Shown piece after piece: positions 13,480 through 20,460 of a DNA stretch of 49,437 bases. The position numbers and the translations under genes were made by a program. The notes under the pieces were generated by a model. It had not been told where the DNA came from and ran no database searches. It saw only the letters and a list, made by a program, of their open reading frames with translations. Source of the stretch: Pseudobdellovibrionaceae bacterium (GTDB lineage Bacteria; Bdellovibrionota; Bdellovibrionia; Bdellovibrionales; JAMPXM01); assembly GCA_947462815.1 (NCBI GenBank), contig CANHQR010000021.1, forward strand, positions 1 through 49,437, written 5' to 3'. Every line of letters starts with the position of its first letter. The stretch's first letter is position 1.

Positions 13480-14580
13480 ATGAGCACGTCGTCATCCTCA
13501 AGCCCAAGTTCAAGTTCTTCCCAAGTCGCCAATGAAGTTAAAGCCCAAGGCTACGCGGCCTTTGACCCCACTTCGTCGCTGAAGCCCTTTGTTTTCCATC
13601 GACGCTCTCCGGAAAAGACAGATGTGCAGATCAAGATTCTGTTCTGTGGAATTTGTCACTCCGATGTTCACTGGGTGAAGGGTGATTGGGGACCACAAAC
13701 TTATCCCGTTGTTCCCGGTCACGAAATCGTCGGCCGAGTGGAGTCGGTTGGGCCGGCAGTCAAGAAGTTCAAAGTCGGCGATCTCGTGGGTGTCGGTTGT
13801 TTGGTGGACTCCTGCCGAGAATGTGGTTCCTGCCGTGAAGACGAAGAGCAGTACTGCGAGCGCGGTGGCACGTTCACCTACGGATCACCGGATCCTCGCG
13901 GTGGTATCACGCAAGGCGGATATTCGTCACACATTGTGGTTGAGGAGCGCTTTGTGTTGCGTGTCCCCGAGTCGATCTCGCCAGCTTCGGCGGCTCCCCT
14001 ACTCTGTGCCGGTATCACCACGTATTCGCCACTGAAACATTGGAAGGCGGGGCCAGGTCAGCATATTGCTGTTGCGGGTCTCGGTGGGCTTGGACACATG
14101 GCCGTCAAGATCGCTCGAGCGATGGGAGCTCACGTCACAGTGCTTTCAACCTCACTGAAGAAACAAAAAGATGCAGAGCGCTTAGGAGCACACGAGTTCA
14201 TCGCTTTGTCCGGTGCCAACGATTTTGCGAAATCTGCGAAAAAGTTCGATCTCATCATCAACACCATTTCAGCATCGCACAGCTATGATGCTTATCTGAG
14301 CTTATTGAAGAAAAACGGCACGATGGTTCTTGTCGGACTTCCTGGGCCTCAGCCGGTGCAGGCTTTTAGTCTCGTAGGTGGTCGTCGGCGATTGGCTGGC
14401 TCCTTGATTGGCGGTATTCGCGAAACTCAAGAGATGCTGGATTTTTGTGCTCAGCACAAGATTGCAGCGGATATTGAGACTGTGAATCCCGAGCAAATCA
14501 ATTCGGCTTATGAACGTTTGTTGAAGAACGACGTGCACTATCGTTTTGTGATTGATCTCCAAGCGGAAGCGGGAAGCTGA
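13480..14580 (+). CDS. zinc-dependent alcohol dehydrogenase, YahK/CAD type
   Basis: NAD(P)H-dependent aldehyde reductase/alcohol dehydrogenase of the cinnamyl-alcohol-dehydrogenase branch, cytoplasmic. Catalytic-zinc ligands are C56 (CGICHSD), H81-E82 (GHEIVG) and C176 (LLCAGIT). Structural-zinc cysteines are at 112, 115, 118 and 126. The dinucleotide motif is GLGGLG (200-205). Total length 366 aa, usual for the family, but with a 13-residue serine-rich N-terminal extension. ATG 13480 follows AGGAGG. The 3' end overlaps the convergent creC gene by 83 bp, and its own terminator lies inside creC. Confidence 0.9.
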   Translation: MSTSSSSSPSSSSSQVANEVKAQGYAAFDPTSSLKPFVFHRRSPEKTDVQIKILFCGICHSDVHWVKGDWGPQTYPVVPGHEIVGRVESVGPAVKKFKVGDLVGVGCLVDSCRECGSCREDEEQYCERGGTFTYGSPDPRGGITQGGYSSHIVVEERFVLRVPESISPASAAPLLCAGITTYSPLKHWKAGPGQHIAVAGLGGLGHMAVKIARAMGAHVTVLSTSLKKQKDAERLGAHEFIALSGANDFAKSAKKFDLIINTISASHSYDAYLSLLKKNGTMVLVGLPGPQPVQAFSLVGGRRRLAGSLIGGIRETQEMLDFCAQHKIAADIETVNPEQINSAYERLLKNDVHYRFVIDLQAEAGS

Positions 14581-16057
14581 GTCTGGCCCGGCAGCCGAAG
14601 GGGGCCTTCCCGTTGATTTCAAAGCGTCCACCATGCAGCCGCAGAATTTCTTGAACGAAGCTCAGGCCTAAGCCTGAGCTTTTTTTTCCGGTGCGCGGTC
14701 GCTCTGTGGAAAAAAATCGTTCTGTGGCTCGTGCTTTTGCGAAATCAGGGAGACCGACGCCATCATCATCAATTTCAATAGTTAATTCTCCTCGATCAAG
14801 ACCTGTTCCCATCGCTTGCATCGAGTGGGTCGCACGAATTCGTATATGGAGCCCTTCGTTACGAGCGAAGTCGATCGAGTTTTGCAATAAATTTGCCATG
14901 GCTCGCCAAATCAAAAAGCGTTCACCAAACATCATCAGCGCGTCGTCGATCTGAACCTCGACGTGACTTGTTTGGAACGAGCGAACTTGAGGTTCAAAAG
15001 ATTCAAGAACTTCGTCGATGAGCAGACTGAGATTGAAGCTTTCTCCTCGCAGTTGGCCTTCGCGAGCTTCGAGCGAGGCGAGCTCTAAGAGTCGGTCGGC
15101 AAGATCGCGAAGACGCTGAGCATCGCCCTCGATGTTCTGCAGCAATTGTTGTCGATCTGCCGGCGCAAGCTGATCCGCGCTCAAAAGTTCTGAGGCGCCT
15201 AGAATACCGGTGAGTGGCGATTTCATTTCATGGGTGAGATTGTGGACGTAGCTTTCAATGTATTGCTTCGCATCGAGGCGTCGTCGGAGAGACTCGATCG
15301 CGTCGGCCAAAAATCCAATTTCATCATGGGCCAAGCGTGGTCTTTGGAGCGTTTGCGTGCGACCCATGTTCTCGACGTACTCCTTGAGCCGTCGAACGGG
15401 TCGAGAAATCCAATAAGTGGCAAAGAGAGACAGCGGCAGAGCGACCAGAGCCAGCGTCAAGATGAGGAGCCCCCCGAGCAGTGTTTGATTACGACCAATT
15501 TGTGTCGCCACACTCTCTACGGGCTTACCGATGGAGAGTACCCCTGAGATCTTTTGATCAACAACGATCGGCGCAGCGATGAAATGAATCGAGGTTCGGG
15601 GATCGTCGGGATTTTCACGTGTCGCGCGAGCACCGTAGCGGCCGCGCAGAGTTAGGGCCACGTCGCGCCAATGGCTAAAATCAGTTCCGCGGGTTTCGCG
15701 GCCTTCCGAGTCCAGCAGAAGCTGGCCGTCCGCATCCGTGATAAAAATTCGAAGACGCAAGTGCGAGCTTCGGTCGATAGAGTTTCGCCCCTGAAACTTC
15801 GTAGATTTGAGAACCTGCAAAGACTCAGTGAATTCGTCGACGGCTTGCTGAATCGAGCCCTTCGCTTTCGCGCGCGCTGCGAGATCCGAAGCGAGAACCC
15901 GACTTGTGTCGATCAGGGTGAGTTCGACGGCCTCAAGAAACTGTGGGCGCAGTTCTCGATATACGCCGAGTGCGACAAGCCCGACGCAGGCGATGCTAAG
16001 GATCATGAAGCTGAGGGTCAATCGCGTGCGGAGTTTCAGGTTGCGCAGCAGCCGCAT
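14498..16057 (-). CDS. creC: sensor histidine kinase CreC
   Basis: Inner-membrane sensor kinase that phosphorylates CreB. From the N-terminus the 519-aa product has a membrane segment (about 15-33), a periplasmic sensor region with SHLRLRIFITDADGQLL (98-114) typical of CreC, a second membrane segment (about 192-216), HAMP, the H-box VHNLTHEMKSPLTG with His276, an N-box (NLLQNSID), the G1 box DDDGVGLP and the G2 box SGLGLSF (461-467). It starts two bases after the creB stop, so translation is probably coupled. A Ser/Asn-rich C-terminal tail overlaps the 3' end of the convergent alcohol dehydrogenase gene. In E. coli CreBC responds to carbon status and fermentation products. Confidence 0.9.
   Translation of the reverse strand: MRLLRNLKLRTRLTLSFMILSIACVGLVALGVYRELRPQFLEAVELTLIDTSRVLASDLAARAKAKGSIQQAVDEFTESLQVLKSTKFQGRNSIDRSSHLRLRIFITDADGQLLLDSEGRETRGTDFSHWRDVALTLRGRYGARATRENPDDPRTSIHFIAAPIVVDQKISGVLSIGKPVESVATQIGRNQTLLGGLLILTLALVALPLSLFATYWISRPVRRLKEYVENMGRTQTLQRPRLAHDEIGFLADAIESLRRRLDAKQYIESYVHNLTHEMKSPLTGILGASELLSADQLAPADRQQLLQNIEGDAQRLRDLADRLLELASLEAREGQLRGESFNLSLLIDEVLESFEPQVRSFQTSHVEVQIDDALMMFGERFLIWRAMANLLQNSIDFARNEGLHIRIRATHSMQAMGTGLDRGELTIEIDDDGVGLPDFAKARATERFFSTERPRTGKKSSGLGLSFVQEILRLHGGRFEINGKAPFGCRARLSFPLPLGDQSQNDSARRSSTNVHKPN
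14659..14687 (+). terminator. intrinsic terminator of the alcohol dehydrogenase gene, inside creC
   Basis: AGCTCAGGC (14659-14667) pairs perfectly with GCCTGAGCT (14672-14680) around a CTAA loop, followed by seven Ts (14681-14687). It lies 78 nt past the alcohol dehydrogenase stop. On the opposite strand the same bases encode SSGLGLSFV, the G2 ATP-lid region of CreC. Confidence 0.9.
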
Positions 16058-16059
16058 CC

Positions 16060-16740
16060 TTATGTCTCACTTTCACTCAGCGAGTAGCCAAGCCCGCGAT
16101 GGGTTTGAATCGGCGAGAGGTCCGGGCGAACTTCTTTGAGTTTGGCACGCAGGGATTTGATATGTGCATCGACGGTCCGTTCTAAGCTCATATCGGGATC
16201 ATCCCACAAGCTCTGCATAAGTTGATGGCGTGAAAACACAACTCCAGGACGGCGGATGAAAAGCTCCAGTAGCTTAAACTCGTAGCGCGATAGCTCTAGA
16301 AGTTTCCCATCAAAACTGATGCGATACTTATCGTGGTCGACATGAAAGAGGCCAAGACGATTTTGAGATGCAGCGATCCGACCCCTTTGTCCCAAGGCCC
16401 GAACACGAAGAGTCAACTCTCGGGGGCTAAACGGTTTGGTGAGATAGTCGTCACCTCCCAGTTCAAAGCCCACAATCTTGTCCGTTTCGCTGGCCCGAGC
16501 TGTTAGAAAGAGAATCGGCGTCTGATCGTGTCGTCGAAGCTCGCGACAAAATTCAAATCCGGTCTGATCCGGAAGCCCAACATCTAAGATGATCACCGAG
16601 TAGTGTTCTCGACTCATCTGCAAGCGAGCCTCAGTAACCGTCTTAGCGTGAGTTAGGGCAAAGCCCTCCTGCTGGAGGGCCATGCGCACGTTGTCGGCGA
16701 TTGAGATTTCGTCTTCCACCAACAACACCTTAAGGCTCAT
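16060..16740 (-). CDS. creB: response regulator CreB (OmpR/PhoB class)
   Basis: Cytoplasmic DNA-binding regulator, 226 aa. The receiver domain (1-118) has acidic residues D10-E11, phospho-acceptor D53 (ILDVGLP), T80 and K102 (LTKPFSP). The C-terminal winged helix (about 128-222) has LSRYEFKLLELFIRRPG and the recognition helix ERTVDAHIKSLRAKL. It overlaps creD by four bases (ATGA) and precedes creC by two, so the three genes form one operon. The TTCAC boxes upstream of creD are the expected CreB target, so the operon is probably autoregulated. Confidence 0.9.
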   Translation of the reverse strand: MSLKVLLVEDEISIADNVRMALQQEGFALTHAKTVTEARLQMSREHYSVIILDVGLPDQTGFEFCRELRRHDQTPILFLTARASETDKIVGFELGGDDYLTKPFSPRELTLRVRALGQRGRIAASQNRLGLFHVDHDKYRISFDGKLLELSRYEFKLLELFIRRPGVVFSRHQLMQSLWDDPDMSLERTVDAHIKSLRAKLKEVRPDLSPIQTHRGLGYSLSESET

Positions 16741-18098
16741 ACGTCGGACCTCGTGGAAAGATTTGACTCAGCACGAACGGACGAGTGTGTCGTTTCGTTG
16801 AGAGTCGCCGATCCCGAAGTTGCAAAGGCTCGAGTCCAATTCACACGCATGGTCATGAGCATAAAGGCCGAAAGTGCGAGGAACAAGGAGATCGCACCGA
16901 TCAACAGAGCAAAGTCTTCGCTCGAGAGCATGGTGTAAACCAGCGCATCGATCAGCAGGAGGACGAACGCCAGGACTGAGGTTTGCCGGGTTTTGGCACC
17001 GATTCCCTTCAAGTAAATGACGAGTAGGACTAAAACTGCCGAGCAGCCTGCGACGTAACTCAAGGCGAAGCCGAGATGTTCACTCAGGGCCAGGAGGAGG
17101 ATGTAGAAGGCGCTGAGGGGAAGCGTCATCAGCAAGTAGTGCAGCCCGTGAAGTCGAAGCGCCCATAGCGTCTCCATCAGGAAAAGAGAAGTCAGAAGCA
17201 GTAAGATGATGAGGCTCGAATACTTCAGCGCGCGCTCCGTCTGTGAGTAAATGTTAACGGGGCTCAGGTGCTCCACGGTGATGCTTTGATTCAGCTGACT
17301 CTGCATGAGTGACCAGGTCGCGGAGAAACCGTCCGGCGTGATTTGCTGCTCAATGGGGAGCTGCCCACTGAAGCTCGGATGGGGCCATTTCGAAGTCATC
17401 CTCAACTTGAGCTTTTCTGCAGGCAGGCGAAAGTCGACGCCTGCGAAGCCGTTGAGCTTGAGATCCATCTCGAAGTGAACGCTCTGTCCGGGCGAAAAAT
17501 CAGGAACAACAGCTTCGAAGCCTTTCTCGGTTCGACTCAAACGTGCGGCCTGGCCGTTAATCTTGAAGCTAAACTCGTGAATCGATTTACTCGTCGGTAG
17601 ATCCCATAAGATTTTCTGTTCCCCACTGATGAGCACCTCGTTGGTCTTCCGCGGTTGCACATCTCTGGGTAAGCGAAACTCGCCGACCATTTTCAAATGA
17701 GCTTTGTAGATGGGAATATCGAAGATCCCTCGCTCGCGAATTTCAATGTCGTCCGTCCAAGAAATGTCGAGGACCTCTGGGGTCAGAAGGCGCTGATCCT
17801 CAGTCCAAATAATGCGTTGTCCCTTCTCGGTTGCCTCTGTTTGAGGATATTGAAATGGCAACACGAACTGGAGGCTTTGAATTTGGTGGCGATCGGCCCA
17901 ACCGTCCACCACACTTTGCTGCGCCTGTAACTCATAAGCTTGGCGTTCGTGAACGACCGAGCGAATCAGGCAACTCGGTGTATTGGCGACTAAGAGTAGT
18001 CCGCCCAGAGTGAACAACTTGAGCCAGAGGGCCGATCGGCCCGTGCGTGGTGGTGTATCGGATGATTGGGTTTTGGCGATGTTTGGGTTGGGCTGCAT
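16737..18098 (-). CDS. creD: inner-membrane protein CreD
   Basis: CreD-family inner-membrane protein of about 453 aa (E. coli CreD is 450). It has an N-terminal membrane segment (about 24-43), a large periplasmic domain (to about 280) with QFVLPFQYP and RGIFDIPIYKAHL, then about five to six helices (including SLIILLLLTSLFLMETLWAL and YLLMTLPLSAFYILLLALSEHLGF, the CreD signature) and a hydrophilic C-terminus. In other bacteria it is the CreB-regulated output gene linked to envelope and beta-lactam stress. ATG 18098 follows GGAGG; an upstream TTG at 18116 is less likely. Here creD is the first gene of the operon, whereas E. coli has creABCD. Confidence 0.9.
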   Translation of the reverse strand: MQPNPNIAKTQSSDTPPRTGRSALWLKLFTLGGLLLVANTPSCLIRSVVHERQAYELQAQQSVVDGWADRHQIQSLQFVLPFQYPQTEATEKGQRIIWTEDQRLLTPEVLDISWTDDIEIRERGIFDIPIYKAHLKMVGEFRLPRDVQPRKTNEVLISGEQKILWDLPTSKSIHEFSFKINGQAARLSRTEKGFEAVVPDFSPGQSVHFEMDLKLNGFAGVDFRLPAEKLKLRMTSKWPHPSFSGQLPIEQQITPDGFSATWSLMQSQLNQSITVEHLSPVNIYSQTERALKYSSLIILLLLTSLFLMETLWALRLHGLHYLLMTLPLSAFYILLLALSEHLGFALSYVAGCSAVLVLLVIYLKGIGAKTRQTSVLAFVLLLIDALVYTMLSSEDFALLIGAISLFLALSAFMLMTMRVNWTRAFATSGSATLNETTHSSVRAESNLSTRSDV

Positions 18099-18132
18099 GT
18101 GACCTCCATGAACCAAAGCATGGAGGGGGAAT

Positions 18133-18159
18133 GTGAAAATACCGTGAAGCCGGGGTGAA
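18133..18159 (-). promoter_or_regulatory. triple cre-tag (CreB-binding boxes)
   Basis: Read on the minus strand, three TTCAC pentamers lie at 18159-18155, 18148-18144 and 18137-18133, each separated by exactly six bases (11-bp period). The published CreB box is the direct repeat TTCACnnnnnnTTCAC, so this is two overlapping boxes. It lies 35 bp upstream of creD's start. Confidence 0.8.
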
Positions 18160-18165
18160 TTGATG

Positions 18166-18314
18166 AAGCTGGGCCATTTGAGTGTGCTCGGTTCTGAGTA
18201 TTAACGAGACATTTCAACAACTTAAGGCGCATTTTGCCGACGCGAAAACTTCGCTCGCTGGCCGCCTCCCCGATGGAAAAGTTCGACCAAAAGCACACTC
18301 AAGTGGCCCAGCTT
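18166..18314. mobile_element. 149-bp MITE-like element with 23-bp inverted ends
   Basis: The arms 18166-18188 and 18292-18314 are inverted copies with one mismatch (each reads AGCTGGGCCA-T/C-TTGAGTG-TGCT from the outside). They share about 15-16 of 19 bases with the left end of the IS1-like element at 1-19. The 103-bp interior has no frame of note. One arm ends inside the stop codon of the upstream flavoprotein gene. A non-autonomous derivative of the IS1-like family is inferred. Confidence 0.55.
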
Positions 18315-20460
18315 AAGAGGGCCGAGTGGGACGGGTGAGCCTAAAAAAGTTCGAAACAAGCTTCAGCGCCCATTCGGGCTTGCGGGCTTGTCGCCAGCGT
18401 CCGGCGACGAATTTATTGGCTTCGGCCATCGTCGGATAAATATGGATGGTGCGCAGAATGTCGTTGAGACCGCGATTCGCTTTCATCGCGGCAATGTATT
18501 CGGTGATCCAGTCTCCCGCCTTGGCTCCAACAATACTGACGCCCAAAATACGATCGCTTCCCGGACGAGTCAGTACTTTGATGAAGCCATTGGCTTCGCC
18601 ATCGGCGATGGCGCGATCGAGGTCGTCGATCGGGTAAGTCGTGACCTCGTAAGGGATGCTCTGCTCGCGAGCTTCGATCTCGTTGAGGCCCACTCGCGCG
18701 ATTTCCGGATGTGTGAAGGTTGCCCAGGGAATGACGCGATAGTCCGCGTTGAAACTTTTGAACGGCGAGAAGAGCGCGTTGACGCTGGCATACCAAGCTT
18801 GGTGGGCAGCGGTATGTGTGAATTGGGAGGGGCCCGCGACATCGCCACAGGCATAGATCGTAGGAATGTTCGTGCGAAGCGTAGCATCCGTCTTGACTCG
18901 GCCATCTGAAGTCAGCTCGACGCCGAGCTCTTCGAGACCGAAGCCGCGCGTGTTGGCTGTTCGGCCCAAAGCGAGGAGCACGCGATCAAACTCAATTTGA
19001 ATTTCGCCGGCGAGGGTTCGTGCTTGAAGGGTGTGCGGCGAGGTGAAAGTGGAGGCCTCGGTGTTGAGATGAACTTGAATCCCCTCGCGGCGGAACTGTT
19101 TGAGAAGGAGTTCGCTGACCTCGGCATCTTCGCGTGGCACGAGTCGATCGCCGCGCTCGATCAAGGTGACGGGCGTGCCGAGACGATGAAAAGCCTGTGC
19201 GAGTTCGCAACCGATCGGCCCCCCTCCTAAAACCACGAGGCTCTTGGGTTGGGACTCAAGATTCCAAACGTTGTCGCTCGTGAGGTAATTGACTTCGCTG
19301 AGGCCAGCGATCTTGGGTACGCGAGGTCGAGCTCCTGTCGCAATCACAATTCGATGCGTGTTGAGAGTGGCTCCGTTCACTTCCACTTGCCAGGGCGAAA
19401 CGATACGAGCCTCTCCTTGGATGCATTCGACTCCAAGTCCGGTGTAGCGTTCGACAGAGTCGTGAGGCTCGATGTCGCGAATGACATGTCGTACGCGGGC
19501 CATCACTTGTGCGAAATCAATGCGAGGTGGTGAGGTGTGAATCCCGAAGCGCGAGGCCTCGCGAATTTCGTGTGCCGCGTGGGCAGCACGAATCAAAGCT
19601 TTGCTCGGTACACATCCCGTGTTGAGACAGTCGCCGCCCATTTTATGCTTTTCGATCAGCGCGACTTTTGCTCGAATCGCCGCGGCAATGTAAGAGGTGA
19701 CAAGTCCAGCTGAGCCGGCGCCGATGACAATTAAGTTGTAGTCAAACTCCGAGGGTCGAGAAAAGCGTCGGAGCACACGACGAGACTTCAACCAAGACAA
19801 TCCGCGCCGAAGAAAAATCGGCAAGAGCCCAAGGGCGGCGAAAGAAAGCACGGCCGTGGGCTGGAGAATGCCACTCAGCGACTCGATGCGGTTGAGCTCG
19901 CGTCCCGCATTCACGTAGGCCACCGTTGCCGGAAGCATGCCGAGCTGACTCACGAACATGTAAGTGGCCGTGTGAATTGGGGTGAGCCCCATCGCTAAAT
20001 TGACGACAAAAAACGGAAATGCCGGCACCAAGCGGAGGGCAAAGAGGTACCAAGCGCCTTCGCGCTCAATCCCTTCATCGAGAGTCTTCAGGCGATGTCC
20101 CCAGCGTTTGCGTACAAAGTCCCGAAACAGGTAGCGCGAGCCCCAAAATGCGAAGGTGGCACCAATCGTTGAACAAAAGCTCACGAGTAGGGTACCGCCC
20201 AAAAGGCCAAACAAGTAGCCCGCGAGGAGAGTCAGTAGCGTGGCACCGGGAAGAGAGAGAGCCGTGCTGGCGATGTAAATCGCAGCGAAGCTCAAAGCGA
20301 AAGTCACGGGGCTCTCAGCCTGTTGGTTGCGCCATTCGAGTTCTCGAGCCTTGAGTTGCGAGAGGGAGAGTTGGTCGAGGGCTCCGCTCCAAAAAATGAA
20401 TCCGATACCCAAAGCGAGCATCGCAAGGACGGCCCAGCGCACACGATTCGACGTCATCAT
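18313..20460 (-). CDS. VTT (TVP38/TMEM64) membrane domain fused to flavin disulfide reductase
   Basis: A 715-aa two-part membrane flavoenzyme. Residues 1-235 form a DedA/VTT-type membrane domain with about six helices, including the family motif FALRLVPAFPFFVVNLAMGL (140-159). Residues 240-715 are a class I pyridine nucleotide-disulfide oxidoreductase related to mercuric and lipoamide reductases: GAGSAG (247-252, FAD), GGDCLNTGCVPSKA (275-288) with redox cysteines 278 and 283, an NAD-binding VVLGGGPIGCELA, YACGDVAG, and a dimerisation domain ending HIYPTMAE with the active-site His673/Glu680 pair. The fusion is known in other bacteria. It probably passes electrons to a small disulfide or quinone at the membrane; the substrate is unknown. 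The gene follows the TerB-like gene by 13 bp. Confidence 0.9.
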   Translation of the reverse strand: MMTSNRVRWAVLAMLALGIGFIFWSGALDQLSLSQLKARELEWRNQQAESPVTFALSFAAIYIASTALSLPGATLLTLLAGYLFGLLGGTLLVSFCSTIGATFAFWGSRYLFRDFVRKRWGHRLKTLDEGIEREGAWYLFALRLVPAFPFFVVNLAMGLTPIHTATYMFVSQLGMLPATVAYVNAGRELNRIESLSGILQPTAVLSFAALGLLPIFLRRGLSWLKSRRVLRRFSRPSEFDYNLIVIGAGSAGLVTSYIAAAIRAKVALIEKHKMGGDCLNTGCVPSKALIRAAHAAHEIREASRFGIHTSPPRIDFAQVMARVRHVIRDIEPHDSVERYTGLGVECIQGEARIVSPWQVEVNGATLNTHRIVIATGARPRVPKIAGLSEVNYLTSDNVWNLESQPKSLVVLGGGPIGCELAQAFHRLGTPVTLIERGDRLVPREDAEVSELLLKQFRREGIQVHLNTEASTFTSPHTLQARTLAGEIQIEFDRVLLALGRTANTRGFGLEELGVELTSDGRVKTDATLRTNIPTIYACGDVAGPSQFTHTAAHQAWYASVNALFSPFKSFNADYRVIPWATFTHPEIARVGLNEIEAREQSIPYEVTTYPIDDLDRAIADGEANGFIKVLTRPGSDRILGVSIVGAKAGDWITEYIAAMKANRGLNDILRTIHIYPTMAEANKFVAGRWRQARKPEWALKLVSNFFRLTRPTRPS

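Follow-up and report, generated by a model that had tools for sequence, protein, structure and literature searches.

The locus lies on contig CANHQR010000021.1 of a Pseudobdellovibrionaceae genome (GCA_947462815.1), and the whole 49,437-nt stretch was taken as the window of the analysis. Three neighbouring genes on its minus strand make up a cre operon. The gene creD (16737-18098) codes for an inner-membrane protein of 453 aa (PF06123, E 4.9e-81; NF008712, 278 bits with a cut-off of 275), creB (16060-16740) for an OmpR/PhoB-type response regulator of 226 aa (NF008296, 285 bits, cut-off 273; alignment), and creC (14498-16057) for a sensor histidine kinase of 519 aa (NF008312, 441 bits, cut-off 356). 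The first two genes overlap by 4 nt and the gap between creB and creC is 2 nt. All three products, which are encoded together, score above the NCBIfam equivalog cut-offs, and the same gene set is found in relatives; the earlier note was thus right to place the boxes described below in front of a creD-creB-creC operon. The best start of creD is the ATG at 18098, preceded by the Shine-Dalgarno sequence GGAGGT at 18107-18102 of the minus strand, and the TTG at 18116, used in the mechanical open reading frame, was rejected in its favour. Directly upstream on the same strand, 18313-20460 encodes a 715-aa fusion protein that has a membrane domain of VTT (DedA) type at its N terminus and, linked to it, a pyridine nucleotide-disulphide oxidoreductase of the mercuric reductase/lipoamide dehydrogenase type.

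The position of creD at the head of the operon had been pointed out as a difference from E. coli, and correctly so: in E. coli creD follows creBC. The creD-creB-creC order is common to four genomes of one family, namely the genome under study (G000, 3.43 Mb), G004, G005 and G010, where it is spread over two contigs. In three genomes of the same taxonomic order (G029, G036 and G050) creC lies upstream of creD, and in G139 creD is divergent from creBC.

Upstream of creD, positions 18159-18133 of the minus strand read TTCAC CCCGGC TTCAC GGTATT TTCAC, that is, three exact pentamers with two 6-nt gaps and steps of 11 bp, exactly as first described. The trimer begins 61 bp and ends 35 bp before the ATG of creD, the first gene of the operon. 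We designate its units as putative CreB half-sites 1 (distal, 18155-18159), 2 (middle, 18144-18148) and 3 (proximal, 18133-18137), the last of which putatively replaces a -35 element and lies at a conserved distance from the -10 hexamer. The cre/blr tag of the literature (TTCACN6TTCAC, PMC4689548), with which the CreB box given in the earlier note agrees, occurs here in two exact overlapping copies (18159-18144 and 18148-18133).

Could such a repeat be a functionless product of chance? TTCAC is frequent as a single word and even as a dimer. In G000 the dimer alone has 17 places and its control 10, a mild enrichment, and the dimers away from creD lie within open frames or have no fitting -10 hexamer, so that a dimer by itself is weak evidence. 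The exact trimer, in contrast, occurs at a single place in the genome (none for the reversed-pattern control), and with up to two mismatches at 10 places versus 3. When the 150 bp preceding creD were dinucleotide-shuffled 300 times, no shuffle reached its score of 15/15. Since the register is also conserved and the distance to the -10 element fixed across orthologues (see below), a chance origin is scarcely credible. The search proposed at the outset, of the genome and of relatives, thus found the trimer once in G000; exact trimers also occur in the family members G002, G003 and G012, where no close CreB was found. These matches are near-identical short repeats. The trimer motif alone is thus not diagnostic, and as a family-wide marker it was rejected.

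What has been kept in the orthologous creD promoters is the array as such, and at that level the claim withstands the refutation named in the earlier note, a lack of the boxes in orthologous operons. From two to four half-sites in a common 11-bp register stand in each of seven independent creD promoters, from what is taken to be one phylum. Four units are present in G004 (TTCAC/TTCCC/TTCAT/TTCAC, 18 of 20 letters), in G010 (TTCAC/TTCAG/TTCAC/TTCAC, 19 of 20), in G036 and G029 (TTCAT/TTCAT/TTCGC/TTCAT, 16 of 20), in G050 (TTCAT/TTCAC/TTCGC/TTCAA, 17 of 20) and in G203 (TTCAC/TTCAC/TTCGT/TTCTT, 16 of 20), while G005 has two (TTCAC/TTCAC, 10 of 10). Few or no dinucleotide shuffles score as high as these arrays when three or four units are counted. 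When TTCAC-like pairs were pooled, 16 were spaced at 11 bp, 10 at 22 bp and 5 at 33 bp, with about 0.3 expected for each distance; this spectrum and the two to four units of the orthologues correspond to 11-bp tandem units of variable number, as in PHO boxes. G139, with its divergent creD, has no significant array of up to three units, and several creD promoters of other bacteria that we examined have no clear array. Gammaproteobacterial creD promoters are enriched in 11-bp pairs (12 versus 0.84) and mildly in 21-bp pairs (5 versus 0.8); the idea of strict 11-bp arrays in all of them was rejected, as many of these promoters show nothing. Relatives were also sought among the genome contigs, where two matches only were found, both distant.

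The earlier note had taken the trimer for something special, two dimeric boxes fused into one. With two or four units in the same register among orthologues, three is just one length of a variable array, and the trimer is not exceptional; because the number of boxes varies, it is better described as a tandem array of variable length, comparable to PHO-box arrays. Half-sites 2 and 3 alone might form the working box, half-site 1 being a functionless leftover. The published minimal tag is a dimer (PMC4689548), only two units are present in G005 and at E. coli cbrA and cbrB, and since unit number varies and two suffice in G005, the third half-site need not matter. We nevertheless find this rather unlikely: half-site 1 matches TTCAC at every position, and in most of the orthologous promoters of the phylum one or two units are kept in addition to the proximal pair.

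Six nucleotides beyond half-site 1 begins a dispersed, lineage-specific element of 149 bp (18166-18314). Its copies measure 145-159 bp; the inverted arms of 23 bp are conserved (AAGCTGGGCCAYTTGAGTGTGCT in the copy before creD), the middle only poorly so. Arm matches number about 47 in G000 and are almost absent from 12 family relatives, and the element resembles a small mobile element of the non-autonomous kind; a search of 17900-18500 against Rfam returned no match. The 715-aa gene described above has its stop codon at the element border. Similar arms are found about 95-147 nt from the ends of seven G000 contigs (C28, C87, C101, C78, C23, C33 and C63; L137-L143). Their flanks fall into two groups, nearly identical within each, and this suggests longer elements in several copies, perhaps insertion sequences with the same arms, that broke the assembly.

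The near end of the element, at 18166, coincides with the place that a fourth half-site would take, 18166-18170, where the letters are AGCTT. The array may once have had four units, the fourth of them replaced by the insertion. Such an account concerns origin and is compatible with our best explanation of function. It draws on the four units of G004 and G010, in neither of which the element arms were found. On the other side, G005 has two units without any element, which leaves the replacement a hypothesis only, and no target-site duplication was recognised; we hold it to be improbable.

The array also stands at a fixed distance from a -10-like hexamer. A consensus scan of the creD promoter found no -35/-10 pair, as is expected where a promoter depends on an activator. 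Exactly 10 nt downstream of half-site 3 lies CATGCT (18117-18122, minus strand), a putative -10 hexamer, which puts the tag within the promoter upstream of creD. Promoters were compared by whether the hexamer has A in second and T in sixth place, the key positions of a -10 element. The last half-site followed by exactly 10 nt and NANNNT was present in 9/9 promoters, seven from creD genes of the phylum and two from E. coli cbrA and cbrB, the hexamers being CATGCT, GAACCT, GAATCT, GATCCT, CAAAAT, GACACT, GATACT, TAAATT and TAGTCT. At other offsets from 0 to 25 such a hexamer was found in at most two of the nine. The 10-nt offset had been spotted before testing, and this is taken into account by using the maximum over 20 offsets, which in 20,000 shuffles never rose above 6/9. 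E. coli creD was not among these nine. Behind its tag come TTCAA, at a step of 10 bp, and then, 10 nt on, CATAGT, so that this promoter falls off the 11-bp register unless a 10-bp step is allowed; CATAGT would fit the 10-nt rule with one slipped unit, and alternative choices of the -10 are possible.

Which regulator do these boxes serve? Another member of the OmpR/PhoB type, for example PhoB or PhoP, might be considered, as TTCAC is not exclusive to CreB: Streptomyces PhoP repeats are 11-nt units with the core GTTCACC (PMC4415409, PMC6283541). Against this, the arrays stand at creD promoters, in operons whose CreB keeps the recognition-helix region of E. coli, and their layout equals that of E. 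coli cbrA and cbrB. The CreB encoded here is 49% identical to that of E. coli in the alignment, with near-identical recognition-helix regions (RTVDAHIKSLRAKL versus RTVDTHIKTLRAKL in E. coli), and its NF008296 score and this alignment indicate a conserved DNA-binding domain. Service to a different regulator is therefore very unlikely.

We favour, with a probability of roughly 0.8, the reading that the triple box is the operator of a class II promoter of the PhoB type, activated by CreB. CreC would phosphorylate CreB, and CreB~P would bind the 11-bp repeats head-to-tail on one face of the DNA. From the place of the -35 element, 10 nt before CATGCT, the proximal pair (half-sites 2 and 3) would help RNA polymerase to start a common creD-creB-creC transcript. 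PhoB is established to take the place of the -35 element, and by analogy CreB may do so at creD. The layout agrees with that of activator promoters where regulators of this type sit on 11-bp direct repeats, head-to-tail and beside the polymerase (PHO boxes, PMC4415409; PhoB-polymerase model, PMC3348028). Half-site 1 could provide an extra contact that raises affinity and cooperativity, or could offer a dimer two alternative binding registers; it may be filled by protein contact, as are the weaker outer units beside the strong core pair of Streptomyces PhoP operators (PMC6283541).

Activation should raise the levels of all three proteins, CreD, CreB and CreC, since the genes of the latter two lie almost directly behind creD, and positive autoregulation would follow from the order of the operon. 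The stress regulator CreB very probably binds the triple box to switch on its own operon. That CreBC would activate creD we infer from the E. coli regulon, where creD, cbrA and cbrB are jointly induced by colicin M (PMC3599342). Activation should not be taken for granted, since CreBC lowers creD expression in Stenotrophomonas maltophilia (PMC4689548). The creD leader implied by the putative -10, only about 12 nt, also counts against our best explanation, as do the variable number of units, the creD promoters of other bacteria that lack a clear array, the result for G139 and the 10-bp step of E. coli creD. As a more speculative extension, which we think distinctly doubtful, CreB acting on long arrays (at least three units) at a single creD-first operon would constitute, in this phylum, a self-amplifying switch with its steepness set by box number, and the mobile element would have altered the setting by trimming the array in the G000 lineage.

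The combination TTCACN6TTCAC N10 NANNNT offers a sharper search pattern for CreB targets, its strict 10-nt distance being found also at E. coli cbrA and cbrB. Within the family it finds creD in G000, G005 and G010. A wider CreB regulon in G000 was looked for with the full pattern and none was found, as the creD site alone matches outside open frames; the sole other composite match (C8:77257) was rejected because it lies inside a 265-aa open frame. In G004 a perfect match to the full pattern (TTCACGGTTTTTTCACATTGCCTTGCGATCCT, L113, C28:2361-2392) lies 17 nt upstream of the start codon, ATG, of a second uppS gene (undecaprenyl diphosphate synthase), apparently a single-gene unit in a genome that also has creD-creB-creC. 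This uppS is a possible CreB target and, as one case in one genome, a lead only; it might link CreB to the supply of lipid carrier and to envelope stress.

How does the triple box relate to known systems? It shares with the E. coli/Aeromonas cre/blr tag, found upstream of creD/blrD and the cbr genes, the pentamer, the 6-nt gap, the regulator family and the target gene; its spacing of 10 nt to a -10-like hexamer is also that of E. coli cbrA and cbrB. It differs in having a third perfect unit in register, and in that one promoter here precedes creD-creB-creC, whereas E. coli creD follows creBC with its own tag just upstream. In Pseudomonas and Stenotrophomonas the same three genes also lie side by side, creD being last there. 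PHO boxes, the operators of E. coli PhoB and, in 11-nt units, of Streptomyces PhoP, are likewise 11-bp head-to-tail repeats whose number varies by promoter, with a core pair and weaker outer units, and their regulators belong to the same OmpR/PhoB family as CreB (PMC4415409, PMC6283541). They differ in the E. coli word CTGTCAT and in the signal, phosphate; we liken the triple box to them and claim no membership. We regard it as a real, conserved CreB operator-promoter, predicted from sequence, and a clean three-box case. Tandem arrays are already known for related regulators, and as two to four copies are found at this position in relatives, the triple box is a neat instance of a familiar type of switch and does not define a new type. 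The new points are the view of the cre tag as an array, with the dimer suggested as its minimum and the operator extended to distant bacteria, the strict 10-nt rule, and a creD-first operon that is probably self-regulated.
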